This document shows positions 8,117 to 31,216 of a stretch of DNA of 64,000 nucleotides, in pieces. The stretch lies in assembly GCA_028753945.1 (NCBI GenBank), contig JAPNXP010000015.1, positions 186,001 through 250,000 on the forward strand, in the 5' to 3' direction. Within the stretch, counting starts at the first letter, position 1, and each line of letters starts with the position of its first letter. The notes beneath the pieces were generated by a model that worked only from the letters and a program-made list of their open reading frames with translations, searched no databases and had not been told where the DNA came from. The DNA comes from Hexactinellida sp. DTS-2022. Taxonomy: Eukaryota > Porifera > Hexactinellida. A program made the translations under genes and the position numbers.

Positions 8117-8261
8117 CTAATAGGTGATCGGTTTGTCCGTGGGCTCGTGGAACACGGAGGCATACGAGGTCTTTAGGAACTGTATGTAGCTCTGCATGCT
8201 CTTGGCAGACGAGTTGGCTTGTTCCAGCTTCTCTCTCATCTCTGCTATCCTGTTGGAGAAC
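8117..8261 (-). pseudogene. Detached copy 1 of the ODF2 terminal exon
   Basis: A 145-bp match to the real ODF2 last exon at 32311-32455, with reading frame, stop and acceptor preserved. No penultimate exon is joined to it and other genes lie between it and ODF2, so it is probably a duplication remnant. It marks the left edge of the array. Confidence 0.75.
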
Positions 8262-10507: not shown

Positions 10508-10515
10508 TATATAAG
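10508..10515 (+). promoter_or_regulatory. TATA box of gene A
   Basis: TATATAAG, 228 bp before the ATG, inside a block (GTATATAAGGTAGCTCAAA) conserved before all six array genes. The distance implies a 5' UTR of roughly 200 bases. Confidence 0.5.
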
Positions 10516-10735
10516 GTAGCTCAAAAACTGAAATCTCAAGTCAGATAAACATCCCTAAAGGAACATCAATTGGACTAAATATACTATAATCAAGGTGGAA
10601 TGTTAAACTATTGCATTATACAATATGGCTTTTATATGGGACCGGATAAATCTTAGATATAGAAACTGTTTAAACATATGTATTAAAAACAAAAAAAGTA
10701 TATTACTATCTCTCTTTACTAGATAATCAATAGAG

Positions 10736-11950
10736 ATGAGGATCTCCAAAATAGTTATCGTTTTCGGTGTTGTCGCGATGGTGGCGCTAATCAACGCCCG
10801 TGCCACAGGTGAGTATTAATAAATAAATACAAACAAATAACCATTGTGTCCTTAGATTATTAAATAAGTGATAATAATACTGTATTTATTTAGATAAAGA
10901 AGTCAAGACAAAAGAAGTGTGAGTTTCCATATCAGTATTATTCCTATTTTTATCTTCGTACCTGGTATTACTACCCCGTTTCACGATGAATTATAGGAGT
11001 ATAACACCTTTCTGAAATGATTTATACTTTAGAGTAATGATGACATGGCAAAAAATCTAAAATTACAGCTGTGCCGAAAACATTTACTTTTGGAGGCACT
11101 ACGACTCCACCAACCACCAAAGGAAAATGCCTCGGCACAGCTCGTATTTTAGATTTTTCATGATGTGTAGACAAAGTGACCAAATTAAAAACATTAGAAG
11201 TAGTCTAGTCATCACATAAATATCATAGATTATTAACATATTTTGTACAATTTAGTGAGACAAAAGCAGTGGAAGAAGGGGAAAACAGTGATTTGGAAGC
11301 ACTGGAAGAACAGACTGACTGTTATCACCACTGTTATCACCACTACCATTACCCCTGTTATCGCCACCACCATTACTGTCACGATGAGTAAGTAGCCCAT
11401 TAATTCATACAATTATCTTACAAAAGCAATGTTTCTTTCTTATGAAGAGTAATCAAGATGTTTGTATCATTTAGTGATCAAGAAACAGTAGACGCAGACG
11501 CTGACAAAGAGATTGACGCTGCCTCATTCAACGAAGAGTGAGTACCTAAGGAATTAATTAATATCATTATGGTGTCCCTTAGCCAACACCTTTCAATATA
11601 AAACCCCGGCTTGGAAAGGTGAACTTGATGATAAAATTACCTTGCCAGTGCCTGAAATTACATTATAATGTGCTGGCCGATATTTAAAAGTCATTCCAAT
11701 AATGATTTGGTAAAATAGTCAAAAATTAAAACTTAGAACTACAAATTATTATAAAATAATATAATGTTAGATGTTTGTATTATTTAGTGACAATGAATTA
11801 GCAAGCGGAGACGAAGACGCTGACTGCTGTTATCACCGCCATCGCTATCACCATTACCACCACCATCGTTATCATCATCACATCTGCCACCATCACCACT
11901 ATCACTACCGTCATCACAGGTGCCATCGCCATAGATGCCACGAGGAGTAA
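10736..11950 (+). CDS. Secreted His/Tyr/Cys-rich modular protein, array gene A
   Basis: Model: exons 10736-10808, 10894-10918, 11256-11387, 11475-11537 and 11788-11950, summing to 151 codons plus a stop. Exon 1 encodes a signal peptide (MRISKIVIVFGVVAMVALIN, then ARAT). The 25-nt microexon adds DKEVKTKEV. Exon 3 is an acidic linker followed by Tyr/His/Cys-rich sequence (CYHHCYHHYHYPCY). Exon 4 is purely acidic, with no His/Cys block. The last exon is strongly His/Tyr/Arg-rich with scattered Cys and ends CHEE-stop. Closest to gene D. I know no matching named family. Secretion is likely. Metal binding or mineral association is inferred from composition. Confidence 0.75.
11037..11165. repeat. 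Intronic inverted-repeat hairpin shared by all array genes
   Basis: In intron 2. Ends ATCTAAAAT and ATTTTAGAT enclose an inner CAGCTGTGCCGA / TCGGCACAGCT repeat. Orthologous copies lie at about 13709-13835, 17240-17370, 23820-23945, 26168-26292 and 29970-30095. The element was therefore present before the genes multiplied, and it is a useful marker of common descent. Confidence 0.65.
11580..11700. repeat. Dispersed element with CCTTGCCAGTGCCTGAAA core
   Basis: About 120 bp with imperfect inverted ends (GCCAACACC and GTGCTGGCCGAT). Copies lie at about 15144-15260, 18748-18860, 24352-24470, 27299-27420 and 30664-30775, always before a last exon. A separate copy lies at 48413-48535 inside FBXL13, so it is a mobile MITE rather than part of the gene. 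Confidence 0.6.
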
Positions 11951-12836
11951 AGCTCATAGGAACCAACAGTAATCCAGGCGCTACTTAGTATAATTTAGGC
12001 GGCAGTTCAGTAATCTAGGCAGTAAATCAATATGAAGCGGTAATTCAGTAATTTAGGCCAGATAACTATTCTGTATTGAGTTATATCTATTATTCAATTA
12101 AATTCAGTTTAGTTTGCTTAGTAACCATTCGTGCCTCTTGACATCCAACAAATTAGGTATCAGATATAAATACAATACATAATTTCTGGGGGATACACTG
12201 CTCTGTATGGTACAGCTACTTTTGCAGCTTTTGCAAAATAAAAAAAACACTTTTGCAGCTACTTTGGAGGCACTGTATTTTGGTCAGGGAATTTCATAGT
12301 TATAACAATGAAATCAAATGCTCACCTATGGGAAATTATGCGCACCTTGACAGGCTAAGGAATACAAATACAAAGACATGTTGGCTTTTTCCAGCTTCTC
12401 TCTCATATCTGTTTTTCTGCTCGAGTACTACGGGGATGTTACTGGTACAACAATTGAGACGGCTTACTAGAGAATAGCTCTATAGCGCCAGATTGGGAAC
12501 AATGGAATGCTTTGTAAAAATTAGCAAATTTGCATCACAAATAATATTTGTAGAACAATAGAGCACGAAACACGACGAGGCGAGATAGATTATAGAAATA
12601 TTTTAAAAGTTAGATTATGTAGTGTGCAGAAATTCTTCAAGCAAAGCTCAGAGATAACAAATACATTAAACTTGCACGTGAAAATTCTATACAAATGGAA
12701 ATTCGAGTACCACAAGAAAAAGATTTCAGTTGAAGATAGAGAATGTATGAATGGACAAAATTAATGTAAAAAATAATCACACAAATCACATTGAATCTAA
12801 CAACCCTTATCTGCCTCGTGAAGAAGATACACGCAG
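11951..12836. other. Spacer A-B with decayed ODF2 exon fragments
   Basis: After the gene A stop there are degenerate copies of the 20-bp AGTAATCTAGGCG repeat (about 11969-12055). Scrambled pieces of the ODF2 penultimate exon follow (about 12190-12300), and of the last exon (about 12375-12430, GCTTTTTCCAGCTTCTCTC). Nothing coding is supported. Confidence 0.55.
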
Positions 12837-12844
12837 TATATAAG
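12837..12844 (+). promoter_or_regulatory. TATA box of gene B
   Basis: TATATAAG in the conserved array promoter block. It lies 564 bp before the ATG because a 338-bp element has inserted between them; the other five copies are 217-228 bp away. Confidence 0.45.
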
Positions 12845-12982
12845 GTAGCTCAAATACTGAAATCTCACATCCGATAAACCTCTCTAAAAGGAACATTCAT
12901 GGGACCTAAATTATTCTATAATCTAGGTCCAATGCTAAAATATAGTTTTATACAATTTGGGACCGGATAAATCTCCCATATA

Positions 12983-13320
12983 CATAGGCGGATAGTTATC
13001 TAAAAATTCCTGAAATTCTGGGGGGGCGAGACAAAATTTTCACAGCAACTGTTTAAATTGAAATCATATTTTATCCATTATAATAGGAAACCCATTACTA
13101 CTTAGAGCTAATAGACATTACAACAAAGATAAAGCTAAGTAATTAAGCTTCAGGTCGGGATTCTCGGGATTATATAATTTTTAAACCTAGTAGACCATTT
13201 TTACTTACAAACTGACATGGAAAATCCAGTTTTTAGATATAAAATTTGGGGGGGCGGCCCCCCCAGATTATAAATCTGGGGGGGCGCGCCCCCCCTGCCC
13301 CCCCCAGTTATTCGCCCATG
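12983..13320. mobile_element. hAT-like MITE inserted in the gene B leader
   Basis: 338 bp with ends CATAGGCG and CGCCCATG, flanked by an exact 8-bp duplication CCCATATA (12975-12982 and 13321-13328). Genes C and others have a single uninterrupted copy of this site. The 8-bp duplication fits hAT transposition. The interior has G-rich and C-rich tracts and no ORF of note. Confidence 0.8.
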
Positions 13321-13400
13321 CCCATATAGGAAGTGTTTAAAATATATTAAAAACAATAAAAGTATATTACTATCTCTCTTCACTAGATAATCAATAGAGA

Positions 13401-15389
13401 ATGAGGATCTCCAAAATAGTTATCCTTTTCGGTGTTGTCGCGATGGTGGCGCTAATCAACGCCCGTGCCACTGGTGAGTATTAATAAATAAATACAAACA
13501 AATAACCATTGTGTCCCTAGATTATTAAATAAGTGATAATAATACTGTATTTATTTAGATAAAGAAGTCAAGACAAAAGAAGTGTGAGTTCCCTATCAGT
13601 ATAATTCCTATTCTTATTTTCGTACCTGTTATTACTACCCCGTTTCACGAGGAGTGAGCAACTTAGGAATTATAGGAGTATAACACCTTTCTGAAATGAT
13701 TTATAGTAATGATGACATGGCAAAAAATCTAAAATTACAGCTGTGCCGAAAACATTTACTTTTGGAGGCACTACGCTCCACCAACCACCAAAGGAAAATG
13801 CTCTCGGCACAGCTCGTATTTTAGATTTTTCATGATTTGTAGACAAAGTGACCAAATTAAAAGCCTTATAAGTAGTTTAGTCCTCAAATAACGAATATGT
13901 AGAATAACTTAGGTAATAATTATTTACATTTTTGTATTATTTAGTGAGACTAAAGCATTGGAAGAACAGGCTAACAGTGATGTAGAAGCAGTAGACGATG
14001 AGACAGACATGTGCTACCCCCTTCCTCCCTGTCGTCCGTGCTATCCTCCTCCCTGTCGTCCGTGCTACCCTCCCTGCTATCACCCCTGTCACGAAGAGTG
14101 AGTAGCCCATTAATTAATTAGTTAATAAATACGATTATTATCTTACATAAGGCATGGTTCTCATCTTACGATGAGTAAACAAGGTGTTTTTATTATTTAG
14201 TGAGACTAAAGCATTGGAAGAACAGGCTAACGATGATGTAGAAGCAGTAGACGATGAGACAGACATGTGCTGCCATCCTTGTCGCCCTCCTCCTTGTCGC
14301 CCTCCTCCCTGTCATTACCCCTGCCACCCTCCCCCCTGCCACCCCTTCTTCCCACCCTGCCACCCCTGCTTCCCACCCTGCCATCGTCCCTGCTATCACC
14401 CCTGTCACGAAGAGTGAGTAGCCCATAAATTAATTAGTTAATAAATACGATTATCTTACATAATGATAAGGCATGGTTCTCATCTTATGAAGAGTAAACA
14501 AGGTGTTTTTATTATTTAGTGAGACTAAAGCATTGGAAGAACAGGCTAACAGTGAAGTAGAAGCAGTAGACGATGAGACAGACATGTGCTGCCATCCTTG
14601 TCGCCCTCCTCCTTGTCGCCCTCCTCCCTGTCATTACCCCTGCCACCCTCCCCCCTGCCACCCCTTCTTCCCACCCTGCCACCCCTGCCACCCCTGCTTC
14701 CCACCCTGCCATCGTCCCTGCTATCACCCCTGTCACGAAGAGTGAGTAGCCCATAAATTAATTAGTTAATAAATACGAATGTCTAACAAAAGGCATGGTT
14801 CTCATCTTATGAAGAGTAAACAAGGTGTTTTTATTATTTAGTGAGACTAAAGCATTGGAAGAACAGGCTAACGATGATGTAGAAGCAGTAGACGATGAGA
14901 CAGACATGTGCCACCGCCCTTGTTATCGTCCCTGCCACCATCATCGTCCCTGCCACCATCATCGTCCCTGCCACCATCATCACCCCTGCCACCATCATCC
15001 CTGCCATTTTCATAATCCCTGCTATAACCCCTGTCACGAAGAGTGAGTAGCCCATAAATTAATTAGTTAATAAATACGATTGTCTTACAAAAGGCATGGT
15101 TCTCATTTATGAAAAGTAAACAAAGTATTTTTGTGTTTTTCAGCCAACACCATTCAATATAAAAACCAGGCTTTGGTAAGGTGAATTTGATGTTAAAAAT
15201 GACATTGCCATGCCTGAAAATCGCATTACAAATGAGTGGGCGATATCTAAAGTAATTCCAATAATTAATTGGCAAAATAGCCAAGAATTAAGGCTCCTAA
15301 GAACTATATAAATTATTATAGGAAAACTTAATGTTGAATGTTGTTATTTATTTAGTGCCAATGAAGTAGATGGGAGCAACGAGGAGTAA
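13401..15389 (+). CDS. Secreted His/Cys/Pro-rich modular protein, array gene B
   Basis: Exons 13401-13473, 13559-13583, 13945-14097, 14201-14413, 14520-14741, 14842-15042 and 15356-15389, summing to 306 codons plus a stop. Same signal peptide and microexon as gene A. Four internal cassettes each start ETKALEEQAN, carry an acidic stretch (VEAVDDETDMC), then a Cys/Pro/His block and end HPCHE. Blocks differ: the first is PPCRPCYPP-like, the second and third are CRPPPC/CHPPPC-rich, the fourth is CHHHRPC repeats. Cassettes 2 and 3 are almost identical, including flanking introns, so they are a recent exon duplication. The last exon is short and acidic. No dibasic cleavage sites are seen. Confidence 0.8.
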
Positions 15390-16205
15390 AGCTCATAGGC
15401 TCCAACAGTAATCTAGGCGCTAATTCAGTATTCTAGGCAGTAATTCAGTATTTTAGGCGCTAATTCAGTAATTTAGGCGGTAAACCAATATTAAGCGGTA
15501 ATTAAGTAATTTAGGCCAGATAACTATTCTGTATGAGTTATATCTATTATTCAATTAAATTCAGTCTAGTTTGCTTAGTAACCATTCGTGCCTCGCCCTC
15601 TTGGCATCCAACAAATTATTAAATATACATAATTACTGGGACTAAATTACAAAATATATACCTCCTCTCTACATTTTCTATATTTCTCTTCAGCTGTGCC
15701 ACATTGCTCTGTATGGTCCCTTGGTGCAGCTTCCTTTGGAGGCACTGTATTTTGGTCAGGGCATTTCTTAGTTATAACTATTAGTTCAAAATACTCACCT
15801 ATGGGAAAACTACTCGCACTCCCACAGGTTAAGGCTTACAGATTCTATCAATGAAACTTTTTAATTAGCAAACACAAAACTGAACGCTTTCGATAACGTA
15901 ATACAAACTACTTTATCGGGACCTACCTCAGCACAGAACGATTCCGATTCTACAGTGCTTTACTGCAGTTTACGTAGTAAACGGGATACTAAAGCAGGGC
16001 ACAAAATTGTCACCTATTGTGTCACAAATGGCAGACAAATGGACAGAAATTAAGTCTACCACATATTGCAGCTACGTATGTTGTATGTATATAAAATAAA
16101 CAAACAAACAAGTATACCAATTCGAGTTCGTAAGTGAGTAGGATTACCATCAGTCTAATTATACGTATAAATATGAGTTATATAATAGGTGCTATGTGAC
16201 AGAGA
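15390..16205. other. Spacer B-C with ODF2 penultimate-exon remnant
   Basis: Holds a few degenerate 20-bp repeats (15405-15500) and a rearranged ODF2 penultimate-exon fragment near 15690-15720 (CTTCAGCTGTGCCACATTGC). After that it matches the flank of ODF2 terminal-exon copies. Confidence 0.5.
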
Positions 16206-16344
16206 CTAGTAGGTGATCGGTTTGTCCGTGGGCTCGTGGAACACGGAGGCATACGAGGTCTTTAGGAACTGTATGTAGCTCTGCATGCTCTTGGCAGACG
16301 AGTTGGCTTGTTCCAGCTTCTCTCTCATATCTGCTATCCTGTTG
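16206..16344 (-). pseudogene. Detached copy 2 of the ODF2 terminal exon, truncated
   Basis: Matches the last exon of ODF2 from its stop to GCTATCCTGTTG, then diverges before the splice acceptor. It cannot be spliced as in the intact gene. Confidence 0.75.
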
Positions 16345-16721
16345 ACGGCTCGCTAGAGAATAGCTCTATAGCGTCAGATTGGGAACAATGGAATGCTTGT
16401 ATAAATTAGCAAATTTGCATCACAAATAATATTTGTGGAACAATAGAGCACGAAACACGACGAAGCGAGATAAATAATAGAATATTTTTAAAGTTAGATT
16501 ATGTAGTGTGCAGAAATTCTTCAAGCAAAGCTCAGAGATAAAAAATACAGTAAACTTGCACGTGAAAAATTTCTATACAAATGGAAATTCGAGTACCACA
16601 AGAAAAAGATTTCAGTTGAAGATAGAGAATGTAAGAATGGACAAATTAATGTAAAAAATAATCACACAAATCACATTGAATCTAAGAACCCTTATCTGCC
16701 TCGTGAAGAAGATACACGCAG

Positions 16722-16729
16722 TATATAAG
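16722..16729 (+). promoter_or_regulatory. TATA box of gene C
   Basis: TATATAAG in the shared promoter block, 218 bp before the ATG. Confidence 0.5.
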
Positions 16730-16939
16730 GTAGCTCAAAAACTGAAATCTCACACCCGATAAACCTCTCTAAAAGGAACATCAATTGGACCTAAATTATT
16801 CTATAATCTAGGTCCAATGCTAAAATATAGTTTTATACAATTTGGGACCGGATAAATCTCCCATATAGGAAGTGTTTAAAATATATTAAAAACAATAAAA
16901 GTATATTACTATCTCTCTTCACTAGATAATCAATAGAGA

Positions 16940-19103
16940 ATGAGGATCTCCAAAATAGTTATCCTTTTCGGTGTTGTCGCGATGGTGGCGCTAATCAACG
17001 CCCGTGCCACTGGTGAGTAATAATAAATAAATACAAACAAATAACCATTGTGTCCTTAGGTTATCAGATAAGTGATAATAATACTGTATTTATTTAGATA
17101 AAGAAGTCAAGACAAAAGAAGTGTGAGTTTCCATATTAGTATTATTCCTATTTTTATCTTCGTACCTGTTATTACTACCCCGTGTCACGAGGAATTATAG
17201 GAGTATAATACCTTTCTGAAATGATTTATACTTTATATTAATGATGACATAACAAAAAAATCTAAAATTACAGCTGTGCCGAAAACATTTACTTTTGGAG
17301 GCACTACGCTCCACCAACCACCAAAGGAAAATGCTCTCGGCACAGCTCGTATTTTAGATTTTTCATGATTTGTAGACAAAGTGACCAAATTAAAAGCCTT
17401 ATAAGTAGTTTAGTCCTCACATAACGAATACCGTATTTATTCGAATAATCGCCTACCTCCAATAATCGCCCCCCTAAAGTAGCAAATAAAAATTTATTAC
17501 TGCTACCCGAAGTAAACATTTATATCTAATATAACTCACAATACGATTATCAACCGATTATCATAAATAAATTGTAATAAAATGTGCTATTCTAGAAAAT
17601 TGCTCAAAATTATTGGTCCAAAAATGGAGTAAAAAACAATAATCGCCTAGGCTACTATTCGAGTAAATACGGTATGTAGAATAACTTAGGTCATAATTAT
17701 TTACATTTTGGTATTATTTAGTGAGACTAAAGCATTGGAAGCTAATAATGAAGTGAAAGCAGTAGACAAAGAGGCAGACATGTGCTTTCCTTGTTTATAT
17801 CATCTTTTTCACCACATTCACCACATATTTCACCCCTGCCATCCCTGCTATCACCCCTGTCACGAAGAGTGAGTAGCCCATTAATTAATTAGTTAATAAA
17901 TACGAGTATTATATAACAAAAGGCATGGTTCTCATCTTATGAAGAGTAAACAAGGTGTTTATATTATTTAGTGAGACTAAAGCATTGGAAGAACAGGCTA
18001 ACGATGATGTAGAAGCAGTAGACGATGAGACAGACATGTGCCACCGCCCTTGTTATCGTCCCTGCCATTATCATCGTCCCTGCCATTATCACCGTCCCTG
18101 CCACCATCATCACCCCTGCCACCACCCCTGTCACGAAGAGTGAGTAGCCCATTAATTAATTAGTTAATAAATACGATTATCTTACATAATGATAAGGCAT
18201 GGTTCTCATCTTATGAAGAGTAAACAAGGTGTTTTTATTATTTAGTGAGACTAAAGCATTGAAAGAACAGGCTAACAATGAAGTAGAAGCAGTAGACGAT
18301 GAGACAGACATGTGCCACCGCCCTTGTTATCGTCCCTGCCATTATCATCGTCCCTGCCATTATCACCGTCCCTGCCATTATCATCACCCCTGCCATCACC
18401 CCTGTCACGAAGAGTGAGTAGCCCATTAATTAATTAGTTAATAAATACGAGTATTATATAACAAAAGGCATGGTTCTCATCTTATGAAGAGTAAACAAGG
18501 TGTTTTTATTATTTAGTGAGACAAAAGCATTGAAAGAACAGGCTAACATTGATGTAGAAGCAGTAGACGAACTGACAGACAAGTGCTGCCATTACCATCA
18601 TCCCTGCCATTACCATCATCCCTGCCATTATTATAATCCCTGCTATCATCCCTGTCACGAAGAGTGAGTAGCCCATTAGTTAATTAGTTAATAAATACGC
18701 GCGATTATATTAAAAAAGGCATGATTCTCAAGGTGTTTTTGTGTTTTCAGCCAACACCATTCAATATAAAACCAGGGTTTGGTAAGGTGAATTTGATGTT
18801 AAAATGACATTGCCATGCCTTGAAAATCACATTATAAATGTGTGGCCGATATAAAAGTAATTCTAATAATAAATTGGCAAAATATCCAAGAATTAAGGCT
18901 CCTTATTGTTATAGGAGCCTTAATTCTTGTTGTTATATTGTTATAAGATTACTTAATATTGAATGTTGGTAATATTTAGAGCCAATGAAGTAGTATGCGC
19001 AGACGAAGACGCTGACCACGTGTTCCACATCGTAAACCATGGCAACTTTGCAATTCATCATCATCATTATTATACATCATCACTCCAGTGTAAAGAGGAG
19101 TAA
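16940..19103 (+). CDS. Secreted His/Cys/Pro-rich modular protein, array gene C
   Basis: Exons 16940-17012, 17098-17122, 17722-17868, 17972-18139, 18246-18413, 18517-18663 and 18980-19103, summing to 283 codons plus a stop. The first cassette is atypical (MCFPCLYHLFHHIHHIFHPC). The next two carry CHYHRPC repeats and the fourth CHYHHPC repeats. The last exon differs from gene B: ANEVVCADEDADH, a HGNFAIHHHHYY patch and a KEE-stop end. Cassettes 2 and 3 are recent duplicates with shared introns. The second intron is lengthened by a MITE at 17431-17672. Function unknown; secretion is inferred from the signal peptide. Confidence 0.8.
17431..17672. mobile_element. TA-flanked MITE in intron 2 of gene C
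   Basis: Ends CCGTATTTATTCGAATAATCGCC and its near inverted copy, flanked by TA. Genes B and E read straight through the same site (AACGAATATGTAGAAT), which shows the empty site. Related ends appear near 44750 and 59170. Confidence 0.75.
18887..18929. repeat. Perfect hairpin before the last exon of gene C
   Basis: A 17-bp stem (CAAGAATTAAGGCTCCT and its complement) around a 9-base loop, about 50 bp before the last acceptor. Identical hairpins lie at 27439-27481 (gene E) and 30803-30845 (gene F). Gene B has only the left arm. It could affect splicing or be transposon debris. Confidence 0.7.
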
Positions 19104-19120
19104 AGCTCATAGGCTCCAAC

Positions 19121-19340
19121 AGTAATCTAGGCGGTACTTCAGTAATCTAGGCGCTAATTCAGTAATCTAGGCGCTACTTCAGTAATCTAGGCGCTACTTC
19201 AGTAATCTAGGCGCTAATTCAGTAATCTAGGCGCTAATTCAGTAATCTAGGCGCTACTTCAGTAATCTAGGCGCTAATTCAGTAATCTAGGCGCTACTTC
19301 AGTAATTTAGGCGGTACTTCAGTAATTTATGGGGTAATTC
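19121..19340. repeat. Eleven 20-bp tandem repeats downstream of gene C
   Basis: Unit AGTAATCTAGGCGCTACTTC with few changes, starting 18 bp after the stop, so probably transcribed in the 3' UTR. Genes E and F have nine units each. Confidence 0.85.
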
Positions 19341-19681
19341 AGTTATTTAGGCCAGATAATCTATTATGTATGAGATATATCTATAATTCAATTAAATTCA
19401 GTTTAGTTTGCTTAGTAACCACGGTGCCTCTTGATATCAAACCAGGGTGTTATCCAGCGTATTGGGCGCGCTTAAAGGAGCGTAATTTGGCAGGATTTTA
19501 ATCTAGGCGAACAAAAATCGAGTCTAGGCCTACAATATCGAGAGATGCTCCCATAGACTTAATACAAGATGACTAATCTAGGCGTACAAAATGAAAATGA
19601 ACGAACTCAAACTAAATCTTAGGAGGGCGGTAAATTTTTCCTGGATGAAAGCTTGTATCCAACAAATTATTAAAATATATA

Positions 19682-19845
19682 CAGTGGAGTTCGCGCTTAA
19701 TAGTAACCCGTGTTTGCCACTAAATCTGGTTGCTAATAGGAGAATGAAATTAACTGTATTATCACGGTTGGGATCTGAAAAGCGGTTGCTAATAAAGCAA
19801 TATAAATTGTTAATAGGGGAGTTGCTAATTAAAGCAACTCCACTG
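19682..19845. repeat. TA-flanked inverted-repeat element downstream of gene C
   Basis: Ends CAGTGGAGTT and AACTCCACTG with TA on both sides. Copies lie at about 28198-28360 and 31559-31721. It lies inside a 90-residue ORF repeated three times, which is therefore unlikely to be a gene. Confidence 0.65.
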
Positions 19846-20434
19846 TATAATTACTGGGACTAAATTACAAAATAATATACCCCTCTCTGCATTTCTTTGT
19901 TTCTCTTCAGCTGTGAATCGGTGGCGCTCAGCTGTGCCACATTGCTCTGTATGGTCCCCCGGTCAGCTACTTTGGAGGCAGTGTATTTTGGTCAGGGCAT
20001 TTCTTAGTTATAACTATGAGTTCAAAATGCTCACCTATGGGAAAATTACTCGCACTCCCACAGGTTAAGGAATACAGATTCTATCAATTAAACTTGTTAA
20101 TTAGCAACCACAAAACAGAACGCTTTCGATAGCGTTATACAAACCACTTTATCGGGACCTTACCTCAACAGAACATTTCCGATTCTACAATCTTACAACA
20201 GTTTACGTAGTAAACGGGATACTAAAGCAGGGCACAGAGTTGTCACCTATTGTGTCACAAATGGCAGACAAATGGACAGAAATTAAGTCTACCACATATT
20301 GCAGCTATGTTGTATGTATATAAAATAAACAAACAAACAAGTATACCAATTCGAGTTCGTAAGTGAGTAGGATTACCATCAGTCTAATTATACGTATAAA
20401 TATGAGTTATATAATAGGTGCTATGTGACAGAGA
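19846..20434. other. Spacer with ODF2 penultimate-exon remnant
   Basis: Near 19900-19980 it carries scrambled pieces of the ODF2 penultimate exon. The remainder is the conserved flank of ODF2 terminal-exon copies. No gene is seen. Confidence 0.45.
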
Positions 20435-20951
20435 CTAATAGGTGATCGGTTTGTCCGTGGGCTCGTGGAACACGGAGGCATACGAGGTCTTTAGGAACTG
20501 TATGTAGCTCTGCATGCTCTTGGCAGACGAGTTGGCTTGTTCCAGCTTCTCTCTCATATCTGCTATCCTGTTGGAGAACCTATGGGGTGTCACTGGTACA
20601 AGAGGGCTATAGAGAATAGCCCAGTAATCTAGGCTAGATAATCTATTCTATGTACAAGTTATATCTATTATTAATTTAATGCATAATGACTCGGACTAAA
20701 TTACAAATAATATACCTCCTCTCTGCATCGTCTTTATTTCTCTTCAGCTGTGAGTTGTTGGCGCTCAGCTGTGCCACCTGCGCCTCTAGGTCTGCCACAT
20801 TGCTCTGTATGGCCCGGTCTCGCGATGAGAGTTTCTCCCTCATTTGCTCCACTTGTCGCCTAGTGTCTGTTCGGCTCGTGCCCATCTGTCGAGACAGATT
20901 TATGTTCTCACTCGTGACCTCCTCGAGTCGGGTCTGCACACGCTGCAAGGC
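20435..20951 (-). pseudogene. Detached copy 3 of the last two ODF2 exons
   Basis: Contains a full terminal exon (20435-20579) and a full penultimate exon (20716-20951), the same lengths (145 and 236 bp) as in intact ODF2. Coding sequence is nearly unchanged and splice sites are kept. Upstream exons are missing, so it is a partial gene duplicate. It might be transcribed, but I see no start. Confidence 0.8.
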
Positions 20952-20978
20952 CTACACACAGCAATGCATTGTCAATAT

Positions 20979-21536
20979 CAGGGTTGGGTTCAAGTACATT
21001 TGAAAGTACTTAAGTACAAGTACAACTACTTTTCAGATATTTAAGTACAATGCAAGTACAAGTACAGGTAAACTTAAAGTACTTAAGTACAAGTACAATG
21101 AAAAAATTACGAAAGTACTTGAGTACAAGTACAAGTACTTCCCAAGCTCTTATGATAAATTTCTCGTACTAATAGTAGAAATTGCTAAATACATAGTTTA
21201 TATAGTATCATCCAAATCTATTTAATTGATTTAGCAGTAGTCCTAGACACGAACACAATTCCTAATATACTAAGTATTAAGTAACACTACTTTATTTGAG
21301 ATGGGATTTGAGGAACGTCAATGATGTGTGTTGGAAATATATTGAATGATAAAAAGTCACGAGTAACAAGTACTCAAGTACAAGTACAAGTACTTTAGAA
21401 AAATGAGGAAAGTAATTAAGTACAAGTACAAGTACAACGGAAAAATGGTGAAAGTACTTAAGTACAAGTACAAGTACTCAAAAAATGTACTTAATTACAG
21501 AAGTACTTAAGTAAATTGTACTTGAACCCAACCCTG
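20979..21536. mobile_element. hAT-like foldback MITE rich in AAGTACAAGTAC repeats
   Basis: 558 bp. Starts CAGGGTTGGGTTCAAGTAC and ends with its inverted copy. It is flanked by the 8-bp duplication GTCAATAT (20971-20978 and 21537-21544). The paralogous site beside intact ODF2 (about 32847-32854) has one GTCAATAT and no element. The interior is mostly short AAGTACAAGTAC-type repeats. Confidence 0.9.
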
Positions 21537-21544
21537 GTCAATAT

Positions 21545-23284
21545 GCGATTTGCGCAGTGCAAGGCTATTTATACTAATCAGGCATGTCTGTCTGTCTTTC
21601 TGTGTATCATTTGACCAATCAAATCAAGGCATTTTCCATTAGGAACTTTCATTAATAGTCTCTGTGCCAGTGGACCCCTAACTTTGGGAGTTGAAAAGCT
21701 ATTGTATTGATTGATAATAATTTGATATCAAATAAATAATATAAGTTATTATATAACTTATAAATGTATGGCTAGACAGACGGAACACAAATAACTGATT
21801 AGATGCATGAAACTTCCTCTAGACCAATTATATTACTATCTCCGTCTTAAAGCACACTAAACAATTGACAGAGACACTAAAATCTTGTATACTATTTGAA
21901 TGCTAACTGTTAATCCATATTAAATACGACCCTCGAAATAATTGGCCAAAGATTTTGTCACCTTTTGAGAAGGAAGATGTGAATATTTTCTTAAATATTT
22001 GGACTTGGTACAAAGGTACAGTATTCCCTACGCTTGCCAAGTACAGTCAGGTCTGCTTATTATGAACAAGATTTCGTTTGCTTAATATGAAGATTTTTTA
22101 TTATGAACAAATCCTACGGTCCCAATTTAACAACTTACATAGGGTTTGTATTAAGTGGAGTTCGCTTATTATGAAGTCTCTCTACTATGAACACAATTTT
22201 TGGTCCCTTAAATGTTCATAATAAAAGAACCTGACTGTATATGGCTTACTATAGATAAGTGAGTTCAGATAAGATAAGATAGTAAATTATGCTGGGATTT
22301 CATTATTTATCAGAGATTCAGAATAATAGAATACATTGCATGAGTTAAATAAATTTGCATTACAAACAAAATTTGCATTACAAATAGAATTTGCATTACA
22401 AATAAAATTTGTGTAACAATGGTAGACGAAACACCTCGGGGCCAGATAAGATAGATACAGATAAAATGTAAGTTATGCAAATAAAGTAGCGTCGAGAGGT
22501 GGGTTTACAACACTTAGTTGAACCAAGGGAGTCAATAGATTGGATGCTCACCCAGACAGTCACCAACACGTGCAGGTTTGCTAATAGCTAAATAGATATT
22601 CTTTCCAACTTCAGGCAACCAGGGTTTTATACAGGACTGGAATTGAACACTCCTAACGGTCATAAGGTCACTAGAGTATGAATTTTGTAGCCTAAAAGGT
22701 TAGTTTTGTACTAGTTTATGGGGAAATTTGGCCTTTTTGGCGCTCCTAAACGCAAACATATCCCAAATTATACGCGTCTAGGCGTATGGCGAGGTCCTGG
22801 ATAAAACCCTGTAATTACAAATATAATAAAATACAAGATTGTCCCAAATATCCTTAAATCTGAGCGTTAGGATAACTTTCTTGGTGACCAGAAAGGTGCT
22901 GAATAAATGCATTTATATTAAATCGTAGTTTGTTTTGTTTGACAGGTGTTTGTTGCATTAAAGTGACATGGATATTCGTATTTTAAGAAATTCTGTTGTA
23001 TAGTATGCAATTATAGTATAGAGTATAAACACTATCCAATTAGGTTGTAAAATTAGTCAGAACATCGTATGACTTGTAGTAGTTCAAAATAATTTGCATT
23101 ACAAATAATATTTATGGAACAATGGAGCACCAAACACTACGAGACCAGATAAACAATAGAAAATATATTCAAACTAACTTTTGATGGGTGGGTGTGGGAT
23201 ATTATATAACAAAAGCTCCTGAAAGAACACAAATCCCATTGAATCTAAGAACCCTTATCTCCCTCGTGAGGAGGACACACACCG
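21545..23284. other. Array spacer upstream of gene D
   Basis: Largely matches 8560-10507 upstream of gene A. Differences include an added element at 22044-22237. No coding capacity is recognised. Confidence 0.55.
22044..22237. repeat. TA-flanked MITE (CAGTCAGGT ends)
   Basis: Ends CAGTCAGGT and ACCTGACTG with TA on both sides. The interior shows TTATGAAC words inverted about the centre. Same family as 256-330 and 53090-53272. Confidence 0.65.
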
Positions 23285-23292
23285 TATATAAG
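23285..23292 (+). promoter_or_regulatory. TATA box of gene D
   Basis: TATATAAG in the shared promoter block, 226 bp before the ATG. Confidence 0.5.
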
Positions 23293-23510
23293 GTAGCTCA
23301 AAAACTGAAATCTCAAGTCAGATAAACATCCCTAAAGGAACATCAATTGGACTAAATATACTATAATCAAGGTGGAATGTTAAACTATTGCATTATACAA
23401 TATGGCTTTTATATGGGACCGGATAAATCTTAGATATAGAAACTGTTTAAAATATATTAACAACAATAAAAGTATATTACTATCTCTCTTCACTAGATAA
23501 TCAATAGAGA

Positions 23511-24722
23511 ATGAGGATCTCCAAAATAGTTATCGTTTTCGGTGTTGTCGCGATGGTGGCGCTAATCAACGCCCGTGCCACAGGTGAGTATTAATAAATA
23601 AATACAAACAAATAACCATTGTGTCCTTAGGTTATCAAATAACTGATAATAATACTGTATTTATTTAGATAAAGAAGTCGAGACAAAAGAAGTGTGAGTT
23701 TCCCTATCAGGATAATTCCTATTCATATCTTCGTACCTGTTACTATCCCGTTTCACGAGGAGTGAGCAACTTAGGAATTATAGGAATATAACACCTTTCT
23801 GAAATGATTTATACTAGTGATGACATGGCAAAAAATCTAAAATTACAGCTGTGCCGAAAAGATTTACGATTGGAGGCCTACGACTCCACCAACCACCAAA
23901 GGAAAAATGCTCTCGGCACAGCTGGCATTTTAGATTTTTCATGATGTGTAGACAAAGTGACCAAATTAAAAATATTAGAAGTATAGTCTAGTCATTACAT
24001 AAAGATTATAGATTATTAACATATTTTTGTACAATTTAGTGAGACAAAAGCAGTGGAAGAAGGGGAAAACAGTGACTTGGAAGCACTGGAAGAACAGACT
24101 GACTGTTATCATCGCTGTTATCACCACTGTTATCGCCACCACCATTACCGTCACGATGAGTAAGTAGCCCATTAATTCATACAATTATCTTACAAAAGCC
24201 ATGTTTCTTTCTTATGAAGAGTAATCAAGATGTTTGTATCATTTAGTGATCAAGAAACAGTAGACGCAGACTCTGACAAAGAGATTGACGCTGCCTCATT
24301 CAACGAAGAGTGAGTACCTAAGGAATTAATTAATATCATTATGGTGTCCCTTAGCCAACACCTTTCAATATAAAACCCCGGCTTGGAAAGGTGAACTTGA
24401 TGATAAAATTACCTTGCCAGTGCCTGAAATTACATTATAATGTGCTGGCCGATATTTAAAAGTCATTCCAATAATGATTTGGTAAAATAGTCAAAAATTA
24501 AAACTTAGAACTTTAAATTATTATAAAATAATATAATGTTAGATGTTTGTATTATTTAGTGACAATGAATTAGCAAGCGGAGACGAAGACGCTGACTGCT
24601 GTTATCACCGCCATCGCTATCACCATTACCACCACCATCGCTATCATCATCACATCTGCCACCATCATCGCTACCACTACCGTCATCACAGGTGCCATCG
24701 CCATAGATGCCACGAGGAGTAA
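23511..24722 (+). CDS. Secreted His/Tyr/Cys-rich modular protein, array gene D
   Basis: Exons 23511-23583, 23669-23693, 24040-24159, 24247-24309 and 24560-24722, summing to 147 codons plus a stop. It is the close paralogue of gene A: same signal peptide, microexon (DKEVETKEV), an ETKAVEEGENSDLEALEEQ linker with a CYHRCYHHCY block, an acidic-only exon and a His/Tyr/Arg-rich last exon ending CHEE. Its first cassette is four codons shorter than in A. Genes A and D form a His/Tyr type without the PPC and HPC blocks of genes B, C, E and F. Confidence 0.75.
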
Positions 24723-25641
24723 AGCTCATAGGAACCAACAGTAATCCAGGCGCTACTTAGTATAATTTAGGCGGCAGTTCAGTAATCTAGGCAGTAAATC
24801 AATATGAAGCGGTAATTCAGTAATTTAGGCCAGATAACTATTCTGTATTGAGTTATATCTATTATTCAATTAAATTCAGTTTAGTTTGCTTAGTAACCAT
24901 TCGTGCCTCTTGACATCCAACAAATTAGGTATCAGATATAAATATACATAATTACTCGGGCTAAATTACAAAATAATATACCTCCTCTCTACATTTTCTT
25001 TGTTTATCTTCAGTTGTGAATCGGTGGCGCTCAGCTGTGCCACATTCCTCTGTATGGTGCAGCTACTTTGGAAGCACTGTATTTTGGTCAGGAAATTTCA
25101 CAGTTATAACAATGAAATCAAATGCTCACCTATGGGAAATTATGCGCACCTCGACAGACTAAGGAATACAAATACAAAGACAAGTTGGCTTTTTCCAGCT
25201 TCTCTCTCATATCTGTTTTTCTGCTCGAGTACTACGGGGATGTTACTGGTACAACAATTGAGACGGCTTACTAGAGAATAGCTCTATAGCGCCAGATTGG
25301 GAACAATGGAATGCTTTGTATAAATTAGCAAATTTGCATCACAAATAATATTTGTAGAACAATAGAGCACGAAACACGACGAAGCGAGATAGATTATAGA
25401 AATATTTTAAAAGTTAGATTATGTAGTGTGCAGAAATTCTTCAAGCAAAGCTCAGAGATAACAAATACATTAAACTTGCACGTGAAAATTTCTATACAAA
25501 TGGAAATTCGAGTACCACAAGAAAAAGATTTCAGTTGAAGATAGAGAATGTATGAATGGACAAAATTAATGTAAAAAATAATCACACAAATCACATTGAA
25601 TCTAACAACCCTTATCTGCCTCGTGAAGAAGATACACGCAG
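24723..25641. other. Spacer D-E with ODF2 exon fragments
   Basis: Matches the A-B spacer: degenerate 20-bp repeats at 24740-24830, an ODF2 penultimate-exon remnant near 25005-25080, and a last-exon remnant near 25180-25230. Nothing coding is supported. Confidence 0.55.
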
Positions 25642-25649
25642 TATATAAG
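25642..25649 (+). promoter_or_regulatory. TATA box of gene E
   Basis: TATATAAG in the shared promoter block, 217 bp before the ATG. Confidence 0.5.
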
Positions 25650-25858
25650 GTAGCTCAAATACTGAAATCTCACATCCGATAAACCTCTCTAAAAGGAACA
25701 TTCATGGGACCTAAATTATTCTATAATCTAGGTCCAATGCTAAAATATAGTTTTATACAATTTGGGACCGGATAAATCTTACATATAGGAAGCGTTTAAA
25801 ATATATTAAAACAATAAAAGTATATTACTATCTCTCTTCACTAGATACTCAATAGAGA

Positions 25859-27658
25859 ATGAGGATCTCCAAAATAGTTATCGTTTTCGGTGTTGTCGCG
25901 ATGGTGGCGCTAATCAACGCCCGTGCCACTGGTGAGTATTAATAAATAAATACAAACAAATAACCATTGTGTCCTTAGGTTATCAAATAACTGATAATAA
26001 TACTGTATTTATTTAGATAAAGAAGTCAAGACAAAAGAAGTGTGAGTTCCCTATCAGTATAATTCCTATTCTTATCTTCGTACCTGTTATTACTACCCCG
26101 TTTCACGAAAAGTGAGCAACTTAGGAATTATAGGAATATAACACCTTCTGAAATGGGTTATAGTAGTGATGACATGGCAAAAAATCTAAAATTACAGCTG
26201 TGCCGAAAACATTTACTTTTGGAGGCACTACGACTCCACCAACCACCAAAGGAAAATGCTCTCGGCACAGCTCGTATTTTAGATTTTTCATTATGTGTAG
26301 ACAAAGTGACCAAATTAAAAGCCTTATAAGTAGTTTAGTCCTCAAATAACGAATATGTAGAATAACTTAGGTAATAATTATTTACATTTTTGTATTATTT
26401 AGTGAGACTAAAGCATTGGAAGAACAGGCTAACAGTGATGTAGAAGCAGTAGACGAAGAGACAGACATGTGCTGTCACCCGTGCTACCCTCCTCCCTGTC
26501 GTCCGTACTACCCTCCCTGTGTTTATCCCCGCCATCCCTGCTATCACCCCTGTCACGAAGAGTGAGTAGCCCATTAATTAATTAGTTAATAAATACGATT
26601 ATTATCTTACATAAGGCATGGTTCTCATCTTACGATGAGTAAACAAGGTGATTTTATTATTTAGTGAGACTAAAGCATTGGAAGAACAGGCTAACGATGA
26701 TGTAGAAGCAGTAGACGATGAGACAGACATGTGCTGCCACCCTTGTCGCCCTCCTCCCTGTCATTCTCACCATCACCCTTGTCGCCCTCCCCCCTATCAT
26801 TCTCACCATCACCATCACCCCTGCCACCCTCCTCCCTGTCATTCTCACCATCACCATCACCCCTGCCACCCTCCCCCCTGCCATTCCCATCATCATCACC
26901 CCTGCTTCCCACCCTGCCATCGCCCCTGTTATCACCCCTGTCACGAAGAGTGAGTAGCCATAAATTAATTAGTTAATAAATACGATTATTATATTACAAA
27001 AGGCATGGTTCTCATCTTATGAAGAGTAAACAAGGTGTTTTTATTATTTAGTGAGACTAAAGCATTGGAAGAACAGGCTAACATTGATGTAGAAGCAGTA
27101 AACGAAGAGACAGACATGTGCTATCCCCTTCCTCCCTGTCGTCCGTGCTACCCTCCCTGTCATCACCCCTGCTATCCCTGCTATCACCCCTGTCACGAAG
27201 AGTGAGTAGCCCATTAATTAATTAGTTAATAATACGATTGTCTAACAAAAGGCATGGTTCTCATCTTATGAAGAGTAAACAAGGTGTTTTTGTGTTTTTC
27301 AACCAACACCATTCAATATAAAAACCAGGCTTGGTAAGCTGAATTTGATGTTAAAAATGACATTGCCATGCCTGAAAATCGCATTACAAATGTGTGGCCG
27401 ATATATAAAGTAATCCAATAATTAATTGGCAAAATATCCAAGAATTAAGGCTCCTTATTGTTATAGGAGCCTTAATTCTTGTTGTTATATTGTTATAAGA
27501 TTACTTAATATTGAATGTTGGTAATATTTAGAGCCAATGAAGTAGTATGCGCAGACGAAGACGCTGACCACGTGTTCCACATCATAAACCATGGCAACTT
27601 TGCAATTCATCATCATCATTATTATTATACATCATCACTCCAGTGTAAAGAGGAGTAA
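25859..27658 (+). CDS. Secreted His/Cys/Pro-rich modular protein, array gene E
   Basis: Exons 25859-25931, 26017-26041, 26403-26561, 26665-26949, 27052-27201 and 27532-27658, summing to 272 codons plus a stop. Three cassettes. The first and third are Pro/Tyr-rich (CYPPPCRP). The second is the longest in the array (95 codons) with alternating CRPPPC and HSHHHHHPC blocks. The last exon is the HGNFAIHHHH type with a KEE-stop end, as in genes C and F. Same signal peptide and microexon. The range of cassette lengths within one gene shows internal repeat expansion. Confidence 0.8.
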
Positions 27659-27674
27659 AGCTCATAGGCTCCAA

Positions 27675-27854
27675 CAGTAATCTAGGCGGTACTTCAGTAA
27701 TCTAGGCGCTAATTCAGTAATCTAGGCGCTACTTCAGTAATCTAGGCGCTACTTCAGTAATCTAGGCGCTACTTCAGTAATCTAGGCGCTACTTCAGTAA
27801 TCTAGGCGCTACTTCAGTAATTTAGGCGGTACTTCAGTAATTTATGGGGTAATT
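27675..27854. repeat. Nine 20-bp tandem repeats downstream of gene E
   Basis: Same unit as at 19121-19340, but mostly in the CTACTTC form. Copy number differs from gene C (eleven), so the tract changes length. Confidence 0.85.
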
Positions 27855-28932
27855 CAGTTATTTAGGCCAGATAATCTATTATGTATGAGATATATCTATA
27901 ATTCAATTAAATTCAGTTTAGTTTGCTTAGTAACCACGGTGCCTCTTGATATCAAACCAGGGTGTTATCCAGCGTATTGGGCGCGCTTAAAGGAGCGTAA
28001 TTTGGCAGGATTTTAATCTAGGCGAACAAAAATCGAGTCTAGGCCTACAATATCGAGAGATGCTCCCATAGACTTAATACAAGATGACTAATCTAGGCGT
28101 ACAAAATGAAAATGAACGAACTCAAACTAAATCTTAGGAGGGCGGTAAATTTTTCCTGGATGAAAGCTTGTATCCAACAAATTATTAAAATATATACAGT
28201 GGAGTTCGCGCTTAATAGTAACCCGTGTTTGCCACTAAATCTGGTTGCTAATAGGAGAATGAAATTAACTGTATTATCACGGTTGGGATCTGAAAAGCGG
28301 TTGCTAATAAAGCAATATAAATTGTTAATAGGGGAGTTGCTAATTAAAGCAACTCCACTGTATAATTACTGGGACTAAATTACAAAATAATATACCCCTC
28401 TCTGCATTTCTTTGTTTCTCTTCAGCTGTGCCACATTGCTCTATTTGGCCCCCCGGTCAGCTACTTTGGAGGCAGTGTATTTTGGTCAGGGCATTTCTTA
28501 GTTATAACTATGAGTTCAAAATGCTCACCTATGGGAAAATTACTCGCACTCCCACAGGTTAAGGAATACAGATTCTATCAATTAAACTTGTTAATTAGCA
28601 ACCACAAAACAGAACGCTTTCGATAGCGTTATACAAACCACTTTATCGGGACCTTACCTCAACAGAACATTTCCGATTCTACAATCTTACAACAGTTTAC
28701 GTAGTAAACGGGATACTCAAGCAGGGCACAAAGTTGTCACCTATTGTGTCACAAATGGCAGACAAATGGACAGAAATTAAGTCTACCACATATTGCAGCT
28801 ACGTATGTTGTATGTATATAAAATAAACAAACAAATAAGTATACCAATTCGAGTTCGTAAGTGAGTAGGATTACCATCAGTCTAATTATACGTATAAATA
28901 TGAGTTATATAATAGGTGCTATATGACAGAGA
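27855..28932. other. Spacer E-F
   Basis: Nearly identical to the segments after genes C and F. It contains the CAGTGGAGTT element (about 28198-28360) and a shortened ODF2 penultimate-exon remnant (about 28420-28480). Confidence 0.5.
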
Positions 28933-29071
28933 CTAATAGGTGATCGGTTTGTCCGTGGGCTCGTGGAACACGGAGGCATACGAGGTCTTTAGGAACTGTA
29001 TGTAGCTCTGCATACTCTTGACAGACGAGTTGGCTTGTTCCAGCTTCTCTCTCATATCTGCTATCCTGTTG
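28933..29071 (-). pseudogene. Detached copy 4 of the ODF2 terminal exon, truncated
   Basis: Same truncation point as copy 2 (after CTATCCTGTTG), with extra substitutions (CATACTCTTGACAG). The shared breakpoint shows that copies 2 and 4 come from one event that was later duplicated. Confidence 0.75.
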
Positions 29072-29448
29072 ACGGCTCGCTAGAGAATAGCTCTATAGCG
29101 TCAGATTGGGAACAATGGAATGCTTGTATAAATTAGCAAATTTGCATCACAAATAATATTTGTGGAACAATAGAGCACGAAACACGACGAAGCGAGATAA
29201 ATAATAGAATATTTTTAAAGTTAGATTATGTAGTGTGCAGAAATTCTTCAAGCAAAGCTCAGAGATAACAAATACAGTAAACTTGCACGTGAAAAATTTC
29301 TATACAAATGGAAATTCGAGTACCACAAGAAAAAGATTTCAGTTGAAGATAGAGAATGTAAGAATGGACAAATTAATGTAAAAAATAATCACACAAATCA
29401 CATTGAATCTAAGAACCCTTATCTGCCTCGTGAAGAAGATACACGCAG

Positions 29449-29456
29449 TATATAAG
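29449..29456 (+). promoter_or_regulatory. TATA box of gene F
   Basis: TATATAAG in the shared promoter block, 217 bp before the ATG. Confidence 0.5.
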
Positions 29457-29665
29457 GTAGCTCAAAAACTGAAATCTCACACCCGATAAACCTCTCTAAA
29501 AGGAACATCAATTGGACCTAAATTATTCTATAATCTAGGTCCAATGCTAAAATATAGTTTTATACAATTTGGGATCGAATAAATCTTACATATAGGAAGT
29601 GTTTAAAATATATTAAAACAATAGAAGTATATTACTATCTCTCTTCACTAGATAATCAATAGAGA

Positions 29666-31019
29666 ATGAGGATCTCCAAAATAGCTATCCTTTTCGGTGT
29701 TGTCGCGATGGTGGCGCTAATCAACGCCCGTGCCACTGGTGAGTATTAATAAATAAATACAAACAAATAACTTTGTGCCCTTAGGTTATCAAATAACTAA
29801 TGATAATACTGTATTTATTTAGATAAAGAGGTCGAGACAAAAGAAGTGTGAGTTTCCATATCAGTATAATTCCTATTCTTATCTTCGTACCTGTTATTAC
29901 TACCACGTATCACGAGGAATTATAGGAGTATAAGTGTATAACACCTTTCTGGAATGGGTTATAATAGTGATGACATGACAAAAAAATCTAAAATTACAGC
30001 TGTGCCGAAAACATTTACTTTTGGAGGCACTACGACTCCACCAACCACCAAAGGAAAATGCTCTCGGCACAGCTGGTATTTTAGACTTTTCATTATGAGT
30101 AGACAAAGTGATCAAATTAAAAGCCTTATAAGTAGTTTAGTCCTCAAATAACGAATATGTAGAATAACTTAGGTAATAATTATTTACATTTTTGTAATAT
30201 TTAGTGGGACTAAAGAAGCAGTAGACGAACTGACAGATAAGTGCTGCCATTACCATCATCCCTGCCATTACCATCATCCCTGCCACTATCATAATCCCTG
30301 CCACTATCATCACCCCTGCCACGAAGAGTGAGTAGCCCATTAGTTAATTAGTTAATAAATACGAGTATTATATAACAAAAGGCATGATTTTCATCTTGTG
30401 AATAGTAAACAAGGATGTTTTTATTATCTAGTGAGGCTAAAGCATTGGAGGAACAGGCTAACAATGAAGTAGAAGCTGGAGACGAACTGACAGACAAGTG
30501 CTGCCATTATCATCATCCCTGCCATTACCATCATCCCTGCCATTATTATAATCCCTGCTATCATCCCTGTCACGAAGAGTGAGTAGCCCATTAGTTAATT
30601 AGTTAATAAATACGCGCGATTATATTAAAAAAGGCATGATTCTCAAGGTGTTTTTGTGTTTTCAGCCAACACCATTCAATATAAAACCAGGGTTTGGTAA
30701 GGTGAATTTGATGTTAAAATGACATTGCCATGCCTTGAAAATCACATTATAAATGTGTGGCCGATATAAAAAGTAATTCTAATAATAAATTGGCAAAATA
30801 TCCAAGAATTAAGGCTCCTTATTGTTATAGGAGCCTTAATTCTTGTTGTTATATTGTTATAAGATTACTTAATATTGAATGTTGGTAATATTTAGAGCCA
30901 ATGAAGTAGTATGCGCAAACGAAGACGCTGACCACGTGTTCCACATCATAAACCATGGCAACTTTGCAATTCATCATCATCATTATTATACATCATCACT
31001 CCAGTGTAAAGAGGAGTAA
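29666..31019 (+). CDS. Secreted His/Cys/Pro-rich modular protein, array gene F
   Basis: Exons 29666-29738, 29823-29847, 30205-30327, 30432-30578 and 30896-31019, summing to 163 codons plus a stop. Shortest of the HPC type: two cassettes with CHYHHPC and CHYHNPC repeats. The first cassette has lost part of its acidic linker (GTKEAVDELTDKCC). The signal peptide has an Ile-to-Ala change (MRISKIAILFG). The last exon is the HGNFAIHHHH type. It lies next to intact ODF2 and has the same TATA block and intron hairpin as the other members. Confidence 0.78.
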
Positions 31020-31036
31020 AGCTCATAGGCTCCAAC

Positions 31037-31216
31037 AGTAATCTAGGCGGTACTTCAGTAATCTAGGCGCTACTTCAGTAATCTAGGCGCTACTTCAGTA
31101 ATCTAGGCGCTACTTCAGTAATCTAGGCGCTACTTCAGTAATCTAGGCGCTACTTCAGTAATCTAGGCGCTACTTCAGTAATTTAGGCGGTACTTCAGTA
31201 ATTTATGGGGTAATTC
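31037..31216. repeat. Nine 20-bp tandem repeats downstream of gene F
   Basis: Same AGTAATCTAGGCGCTACTTC unit in the presumed 3' UTR. Confidence 0.85.

Follow-up and report, generated by a model that had tools for sequence, protein, structure and literature searches.

A six-gene array of secreted His/Cys/Pro-rich proteins in a hexactinellid sponge, tentatively placed in a host-defence-type family

A cassette array and its sister cluster

We analysed a 64,000-nt window of Hexactinellida sp. DTS-2022 (contig JAPNXP010000015.1, positions 186,001 to 250,000), in which six genes, A–F, form an array encoding proteins with a predicted secretion signal, acidic parts and, in four of them, repeated blocks rich in His, Cys and Pro. 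Our favoured reading, which is tentative, is that the array is the His/Cys/Pro branch of a secreted host-defence-type family with bipartite charge, whose action would be switched by pH or by metal. The shift toward such a family came from whole-genome searches, which located a sister cluster of four genes, P1–P4, with antimicrobial-peptide-like ends. One conserved leader precedes three kinds of end: Arg/Lys-rich in P1–P4, His/Arg/Tyr in A and D, and repeated His/Cys/Pro blocks in B, C, E and F.

The genome searched was a 112.4-Mb, 18-contig assembly that includes the window; C1 and C13 are sequences of the same genome. With gene C as query, matches at E ≤ 0.001 fell only in the window array (22 of 22). 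Gene A as query, taken to E 10, matched its signal exon in four copies at C1:14.67–14.71 Mb (E 5–7e-4), with further signal exons at C13:4.48 Mb (E 0.002) and C1:13.96 Mb (E 0.09). A 20-base signal-exon pattern (≤2 mismatches) had 13 sites in the genome and none in a reversed control. The copies at C13:4483276 (-) and C1:13962408 (+) are known from their first exon only, and a further site, C13:4490035, departs from the pattern at 2 positions and runs into an early stop.

The exons of P1–P4 measure 73, 25, 96, 51–63 and 160–205 nt, compared with 73, 25, 132 or 120, 63 and 163 nt in A and D; the two clusters have in common the signal exon, the microexon length, the acidic exons and a 3′ tandem unit. 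Aligned over their full mature length, A and P1 scored 130, against 34.5 ± 6.4 for shuffled sequences, with none of 500 shuffles reaching that score. Six other pairs tested by protein alignment each beat 500 of 500 shuffles. In DNA, exon 1 of A and P1 is 86% alike, and introns 1, 3 and 4 and both flanks showed likeness above all 300 shuffles; for intron 2 the likeness is weak, 4% of shuffles reaching its level. The proposed kinship of A and P1 rests on exon 1, the protein alignment, the exon plan, the introns and the flanks. When the last exon of A (11788-11950) is aligned with that of P1, some P1 Arg positions pair with His in A. A single transition at a CpG turns CGY into CAY, which may be how Arg-rich ends gave way to His-rich ones.

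All ten genes (A–F, P1–P4) begin with a hydrophobic stretch of ~23 residues, read off the translations as an N-terminal signal, and an acidic pro-region follows. Residues 24–95 of P1–P4 are 36–38% acidic (Asp + Glu), and the Arg/Lys-rich ends carry +14 to +22 in 40–55 residues. Helical moment exceeded that of shuffles in P2 (p = 0.0035) and P3 (p = 0.011), not in P1 (p = 0.16) or P4 (p = 0.11; all p uncorrected). Nonsynonymous divergence (dN) among the P genes was 0.03–0.06 in exons 1–4 and rose to 0.36–0.79 in exon 5, where synonymous divergence (dS) was 0.5–1.5 (6 of 6 pairs). Because exons 1–4 are near-constant and exon 5 has diverged strongly, we read the P end as a variable module attached to a leader that stays constant. 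Likeness, gaps included, was 0.51 for the changing part of exon 5, 0.81 for the 150 nt that follow and 0.57 for the last 100 nt of intron 4. Positive selection on exon 5 is unsupported, since dS is high as well and the adjoining intron end has also diverged.

Computed with Cys taken as oxidised, the mature products of A–F carry a net charge of −17.7 to −34.7 at pH 8.1 and +7.9 to +24.2 at pH 5. Their isoelectric points are 5.3–5.9, and the sign of the charge flips between pH 6 and 5 in all six. Under the host-defence reading, the acidic part would keep the protein in solution and prevent it from doing harm, both within the secretory pathway and in seawater, where His is neutral. The His/Cys/Pro blocks would be held by disulfides and turn cationic in an acidic place, such as a phagocytic vacuole or an acidified microbial surface; alternatively, binding of zinc or copper may make them cationic. 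Switched blocks would then bind microbial membranes or withhold metal, and cassette duplication with repeat slippage would supply variants. A more specific version is possible but doubtful: an Arg-rich helical antimicrobial end was turned into a His/Cys/Pro module and multiplied as phase-2 cassettes, yielding a defence material gated by pH or metal, which would be strongly anionic at first and become cationic once the pH falls from 6 to 5 or metal is bound. No description of such material in sponges was found in the searches made.

Several observations weigh against placing A–F in a host-defence family. The cationic mature part seen in P1–P4 is lacking at neutral pH from the window blocks, which are barely cationic there (−5 to +6, with only A3 at +5 and D3 at +6 above +3), and the mature window proteins carry no dibasic sites (0 of 6). 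For these reasons we do not class A–F as antimicrobial peptide precursors; what speaks most against that label is that processing sites are missing and that the charge at neutral pH is low. A conserved leader with a diverging end, found in all six P pairs, appears in the window cassettes only through indels; on aligned bases the blocks are no more diverged than the flanking introns. DNA of exons 2–4 of A and P1, 67–70% alike, does not stand above an unrelated control (69–72%), and the A end has no significant helical amphipathicity (p = 0.36, uncorrected). In P exon 5 it is not dN alone that is high, and the intron end upstream is nearly as diverged as the changing part (0.57 vs 0.51); P4, moreover, uses another frame than P1–P3 for their shared tail sequence. 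In the literature, histatin 5 is reported to kill no streptococci, whether Zn-dependently or Zn-independently (PMC10012264), and the silica protein silaffin Sil1p is likewise acidic and then basic (PMC4557024). Release of separate peptides from the window proteins at dibasic sites, considered as a candidate, is unsupported because such sites are absent.

Gene structure and history of the array

A sequence-only reading of the window had proposed six spliced, in-frame proteins of 151, 306, 283, 147, 272 and 163 residues, and our models reproduced these to the residue (Table 1). Its signal peptide, 25-nt microexon and cassettes of an acidic part plus a His/Cys/Pro block were likewise borne out by the re-derived models in all six genes. 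Every coding sequence is a multiple of 3 with a single terminal stop, and exon 1 (73 nt) and the microexon (25 nt) are constant in length across the array. The AG/GT borders were imposed by the gene-model script, so they are no independent evidence for the models. In B, C, E and F the middle exon has been multiplied into cassettes, which are phase 2-2 exons; A and D keep five exons. Leaders of the block-holding window exons are 29–54% Asp + Glu.

Table 1. Coordinates of the array genes, associated noncoding elements and the sister cluster (window positions unless marked C1)
Feature	Position	Strand	Details
Gene A	10736..11950	+	151 aa; exons 10736-10808, 10894-10918, 11256-11387, 11475-11537, 11788-11950 (73/25/132/63/163 nt); five-exon plan as in C1 paralogues
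Gene B	13401..15389	+	306 aa; four His/Cys/Pro cassettes 13945-14097, 14201-14413, 14520-14741, 14842-15042; short acidic last exon 15356-15389
Gene C	16940..19103	+	283 aa; four cassettes 17722-17868, 17972-18139, 18246-18413, 18517-18663; last exon 18980-19103
Gene D	23511..24722	+	147 aa; near copy of A; exons 23511-23583, 23669-23693, 24040-24159, 24247-24309, 24560-24722 (73/25/120/63/163 nt)
Gene E	25859..27658	+	272 aa; three cassettes 26403-26561, 26665-26949, 27052-27201; last exon 27532-27658
Gene F	29666..31019	+	163 aa; two cassettes 30205-30327, 30432-30578; last exon 30896-31019
20-nt tandem unit CAGTAATCTAGGCGCTACTT	19120..19352 (after C); also 15406-15516 (B), 27675-27867 (E), 31036-31228 (F)	+	fewer, degenerate units after A and D; present after four C1 paralogues too
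99-bp element, intron 2 of A	11056..11153; also intron 2 of B-F: 13728-13825, 17261-17358, 23836-23934, 26185-26283, 29987-30085	+	
TATATAAGG box upstream of A	10506..10516; also 12836 (B), 16721 (C), 23283 (D), 25641 (E), 29448 (F)	+	putative promoter role
C1 sister cluster P1-P4	C1:14673181-14706235	two genes per strand	138/149/140/137 aa; cationic antimicrobial-peptide-like ends

The array consists of a three-gene block present twice, as A–C and as D–F (matching in five pieces of 94.7–98.5% identity). Gene E is a mosaic whose 5′ part matches B (95.3%) and whose 3′ part matches C (92.8%). D–F might conceivably be a haplotig, i.e. a false duplicate, but the copies differ in cassette number and in the last exon.

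Three to 12 copies of the 20-nt unit (≤2 mismatches) lie within 500 nt past the stop in 10 of 10 genes of the two clusters, and none in 20 of 20 control stretches. A stricter two-unit pattern had 50 matches genome-wide, every one inside the window array or the C1 cluster: after B, C, E, F and P1–P4 and at one further C1 place, with none after A or D. That extra match follows an orphan exon ending near C1:14701025, an Arg/His-rich open frame (~C1:14700876-14701025) that has the SESE tail of P1–P3 and then the 3′ unit. No signal exon was seen upstream of it; it would be either an alternative last exon of P2 or the remnant of a fifth gene. The six copies of the 99-bp intron-2 element are 94–100% identical to the F copy used as query, and the element had no match within the 46-kb C1 block. 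Its presence in all six introns 2, together with that lack of a C1 match, indicates that it probably entered before the array expanded.

Constraint and divergence

Values of dN and dS were 0.014 and 0.065 for A/D, 0.076 and 0.314 for B/E and 0.047 and 0.171 for C/F (ratios 0.2–0.3), those for B/E and C/F being rough, with 120 gap columns in each alignment. That dN is below dS in all three pairs suggests that the reading frames of A–F are maintained as coding sequence. Counting against constraint, the short acidic parts of the cassettes have a mean dN of 0.080, above their mean dS of 0.047 (55 of 78 pairs usable). Across the 13 cassettes of B, C, E and F (78 pairs), with gaps counted, acidic parts were 0.84 alike, blocks 0.59 and flanking introns 72–83%; on aligned bases only, the figures were 0.91, 0.87, and 0.86 and 0.92 for the introns on either side. 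Block differences are mostly of whole repeat units, and block length ranges from 26 to 72 residues.

Searches for relatives

Protein searches covered 5.8 billion proteins. A phmmer search with gene C gave 6802 candidates, none at E ≤ 0.01. A hidden Markov model of 17 exons (14 of the 15 block-holding internal window exons, B3 being left out, plus three of the four C1 exon-3 sequences) gave 2617, none at E ≤ 1. Spliced proteins of eukaryotes are probably poorly represented in the database, so the absence of relatives there is weak evidence. No curated Pfam cut-off was reached by the four window proteins scanned (A, B, C and F) or by P1–P4; the nearest approach was of B to DUF5956 (E 1.2e-4, 22.7 bits vs a cut-off of 24). 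A PDB search with P2 as the sole query listed 16 rows up to E 10, the best at E 0.72. AlphaFold, given the E2 cassette alone and no alignment, returned a predicted local distance difference test score (pLDDT) of 45.3, a predicted template modelling score (pTM) of 0.13 and no assigned secondary structure, so that a fold is not obvious.

The literature searched, which was mostly openly accessible, yielded no description of this family. The sequence-only reading had found no family to name, and neither the protein searches nor Pfam supplied one. Its proposal, drawn from composition, that the proteins bind metal or act in a matrix outside the cell is one possible reading, but the sister cluster moved our preference to a host-defence-type family. 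Its further suggestion of an undescribed system needs narrowing: the family was undescribed in our searches, but the general design is known from other animals, and we prefer "undescribed family of known general design". The His/Cys/Pro cassette version is new as far as the searches reach.

Comparison with known systems

Antimicrobial peptide families of Hydra, the periculins and arminins, resemble the sponge genes in having a signal peptide, strongly bipartite charge, cysteine patterns, paralogues in a few clusters with scattered copies, and restricted distribution (PMC10945409). A–F differ from them in the repeated acidic/His-Cys-Pro cassettes, the 25-nt microexon and the small cationic charge at neutral pH; two protein-database searches gave no sequence link to periculins or arminins, with no direct comparison made. 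Precursors of frog skin antimicrobial peptides have a conserved signal and acidic propiece and a hypervariable end (PMC7106915), much as the C-terminal ends of P1–P4 diverge. Compared by description, the frog precursors are of vertebrate origin, whereas the window proteins have no dibasic site and B, C, E and F carry several blocks. Clavanins and histatins are His-rich, and for them protonation of His or metal binding is described as the switch, with His-dependent activity in acid and with metal depletion; the comparison is again by description, and Cys/Pro-rich cassettes do not figure in that description (PMC5198042).

Alternative readings

The array could instead encode an extracellular skeletal or biosilica matrix, a somewhat unlikely alternative in which acidic blocks alternate with His/Cys/Pro blocks, disulfides would cross-link them, and the whole would template silica or an organic skeleton much as glassin, perisilin or silaffins do. 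Secreted His-rich proteins, glassin and perisilin, are tied to silica deposition in glass sponges (PMC10772126), dense Cys without dibasic sites fits a cross-linked material, and Sil1p combines a signal, an acidic part and basic repeats (PMC4557024). A relative of cathepsin L and silicatein in which Ser replaces the catalytic Cys (GSCGSSWAFS) is also encoded in the genome, at C1:17.466 Mb, so the animal may make silica. This gene (C1:17465759-17466850), near an ordinary cathepsin-L-like gene and one among the 20 of 32 Peptidase_C1 matches scanned, had its best PDB match in cathsilicatein (1.2e-58), with ordinary cathepsin L (7.6e-58) almost level and silicatein alpha (8.9e-47) scoring lower. 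No sequence relation of the array to silica proteins was found, however, glassin being set apart by description and not by direct comparison. Glassin consists of HD, P and HT domains and is confined to Hexasterophora, perisilin is a distant CAP-superfamily relative, and Cys cassettes are mentioned for neither in the available part of the source (PMC10772126). Sil1p is described as having Lys clusters, RXL processing sites and acidic and basic parts that do not alternate (PMC4557024); the window blocks hold only 3 Lys, 10 Ser and 3 Thr in 702 residues, unlike silaffin or the His/Thr domain of glassin, and RXL occurs in none of the six mature proteins. Nor is it obvious what the diverged cationic ends of P1–P4 would do in a mineral matrix.

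Metallothioneins have CXC-type Cys clusters and no signal peptide; CXC is absent from all six window proteins, which do have a signal exon. Metal binding without membrane attack, by secreted scavengers or buffers of zinc, copper or nickel serving detoxification or nutritional immunity, is unlikely in our estimate. It draws on the 337 His and Cys among 702 block residues and on the CX2C to CX5C spacings common in B, C and E, and is opposed by the missing CXC motif and by the Arg/Lys-rich paralogues with the same leader and 3′ unit, which it leaves unexplained. As metal depletion by His-rich antimicrobial molecules has been described (PMC5198042), it overlaps with the host-defence reading. Very improbable, to our mind, is drift in composition, in which repeats of codons with a pyrimidine on both sides (YNY) were expanded by slippage and have no special function. 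With terminal exons and stops included, the blocks have 707 codons, of which 595 are YNY, whereas among the 406 acidic codons the share is 0.7%. The wide range of block lengths and the excess of dN over dS in the acidic parts agree with drift. Yet among the eight residues that YNY codons can encode, His, Cys, Pro, Tyr and Arg account for 568 and Phe, Leu and Ser for 27, whole-gene dN/dS is low in three pairs, and the frame is kept in six genes. This suggests that slippage accounts for the block repeats, while the choice of residues points to selection.

Other features of the window

The last exon of a minus-strand coiled-coil gene occurs five times in or beside the array (8123-8254, 16212-16343, 20441-20572, 28939-29070 and 32317-32448), and the exon preceding it twice (20739-20951 and 32616-32828, minus strand). 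Two NHL-repeat proteins lie at 43355-44617 (+) and 59298-60548 (-); the former had 463 database matches, with a best identity of 78% among the 120 matches listed. Frames at 55345-56378 (-) resemble retroelement parts by eye. Rfam (gathering threshold) and tRNA scans across the window found none.

Significance

Silicatein is the silicifying protein of demosponges (PMC10772126), and if the silica reading were true, a skeletal protein would be added beside it. Sponges have yielded few gene-encoded antimicrobial peptides; among the few that are well characterised is the defensin-like ASABF of Suberites (PMC12466427, a 2025 review). If the host-defence reading is true, two clusters with one leader and changing ends would give sponges an equivalent of the Hydra and frog systems, and the window branch would show a cationic peptide becoming a His/Cys/Pro module. 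The window branch also offers short candidates that are open to direct synthesis.

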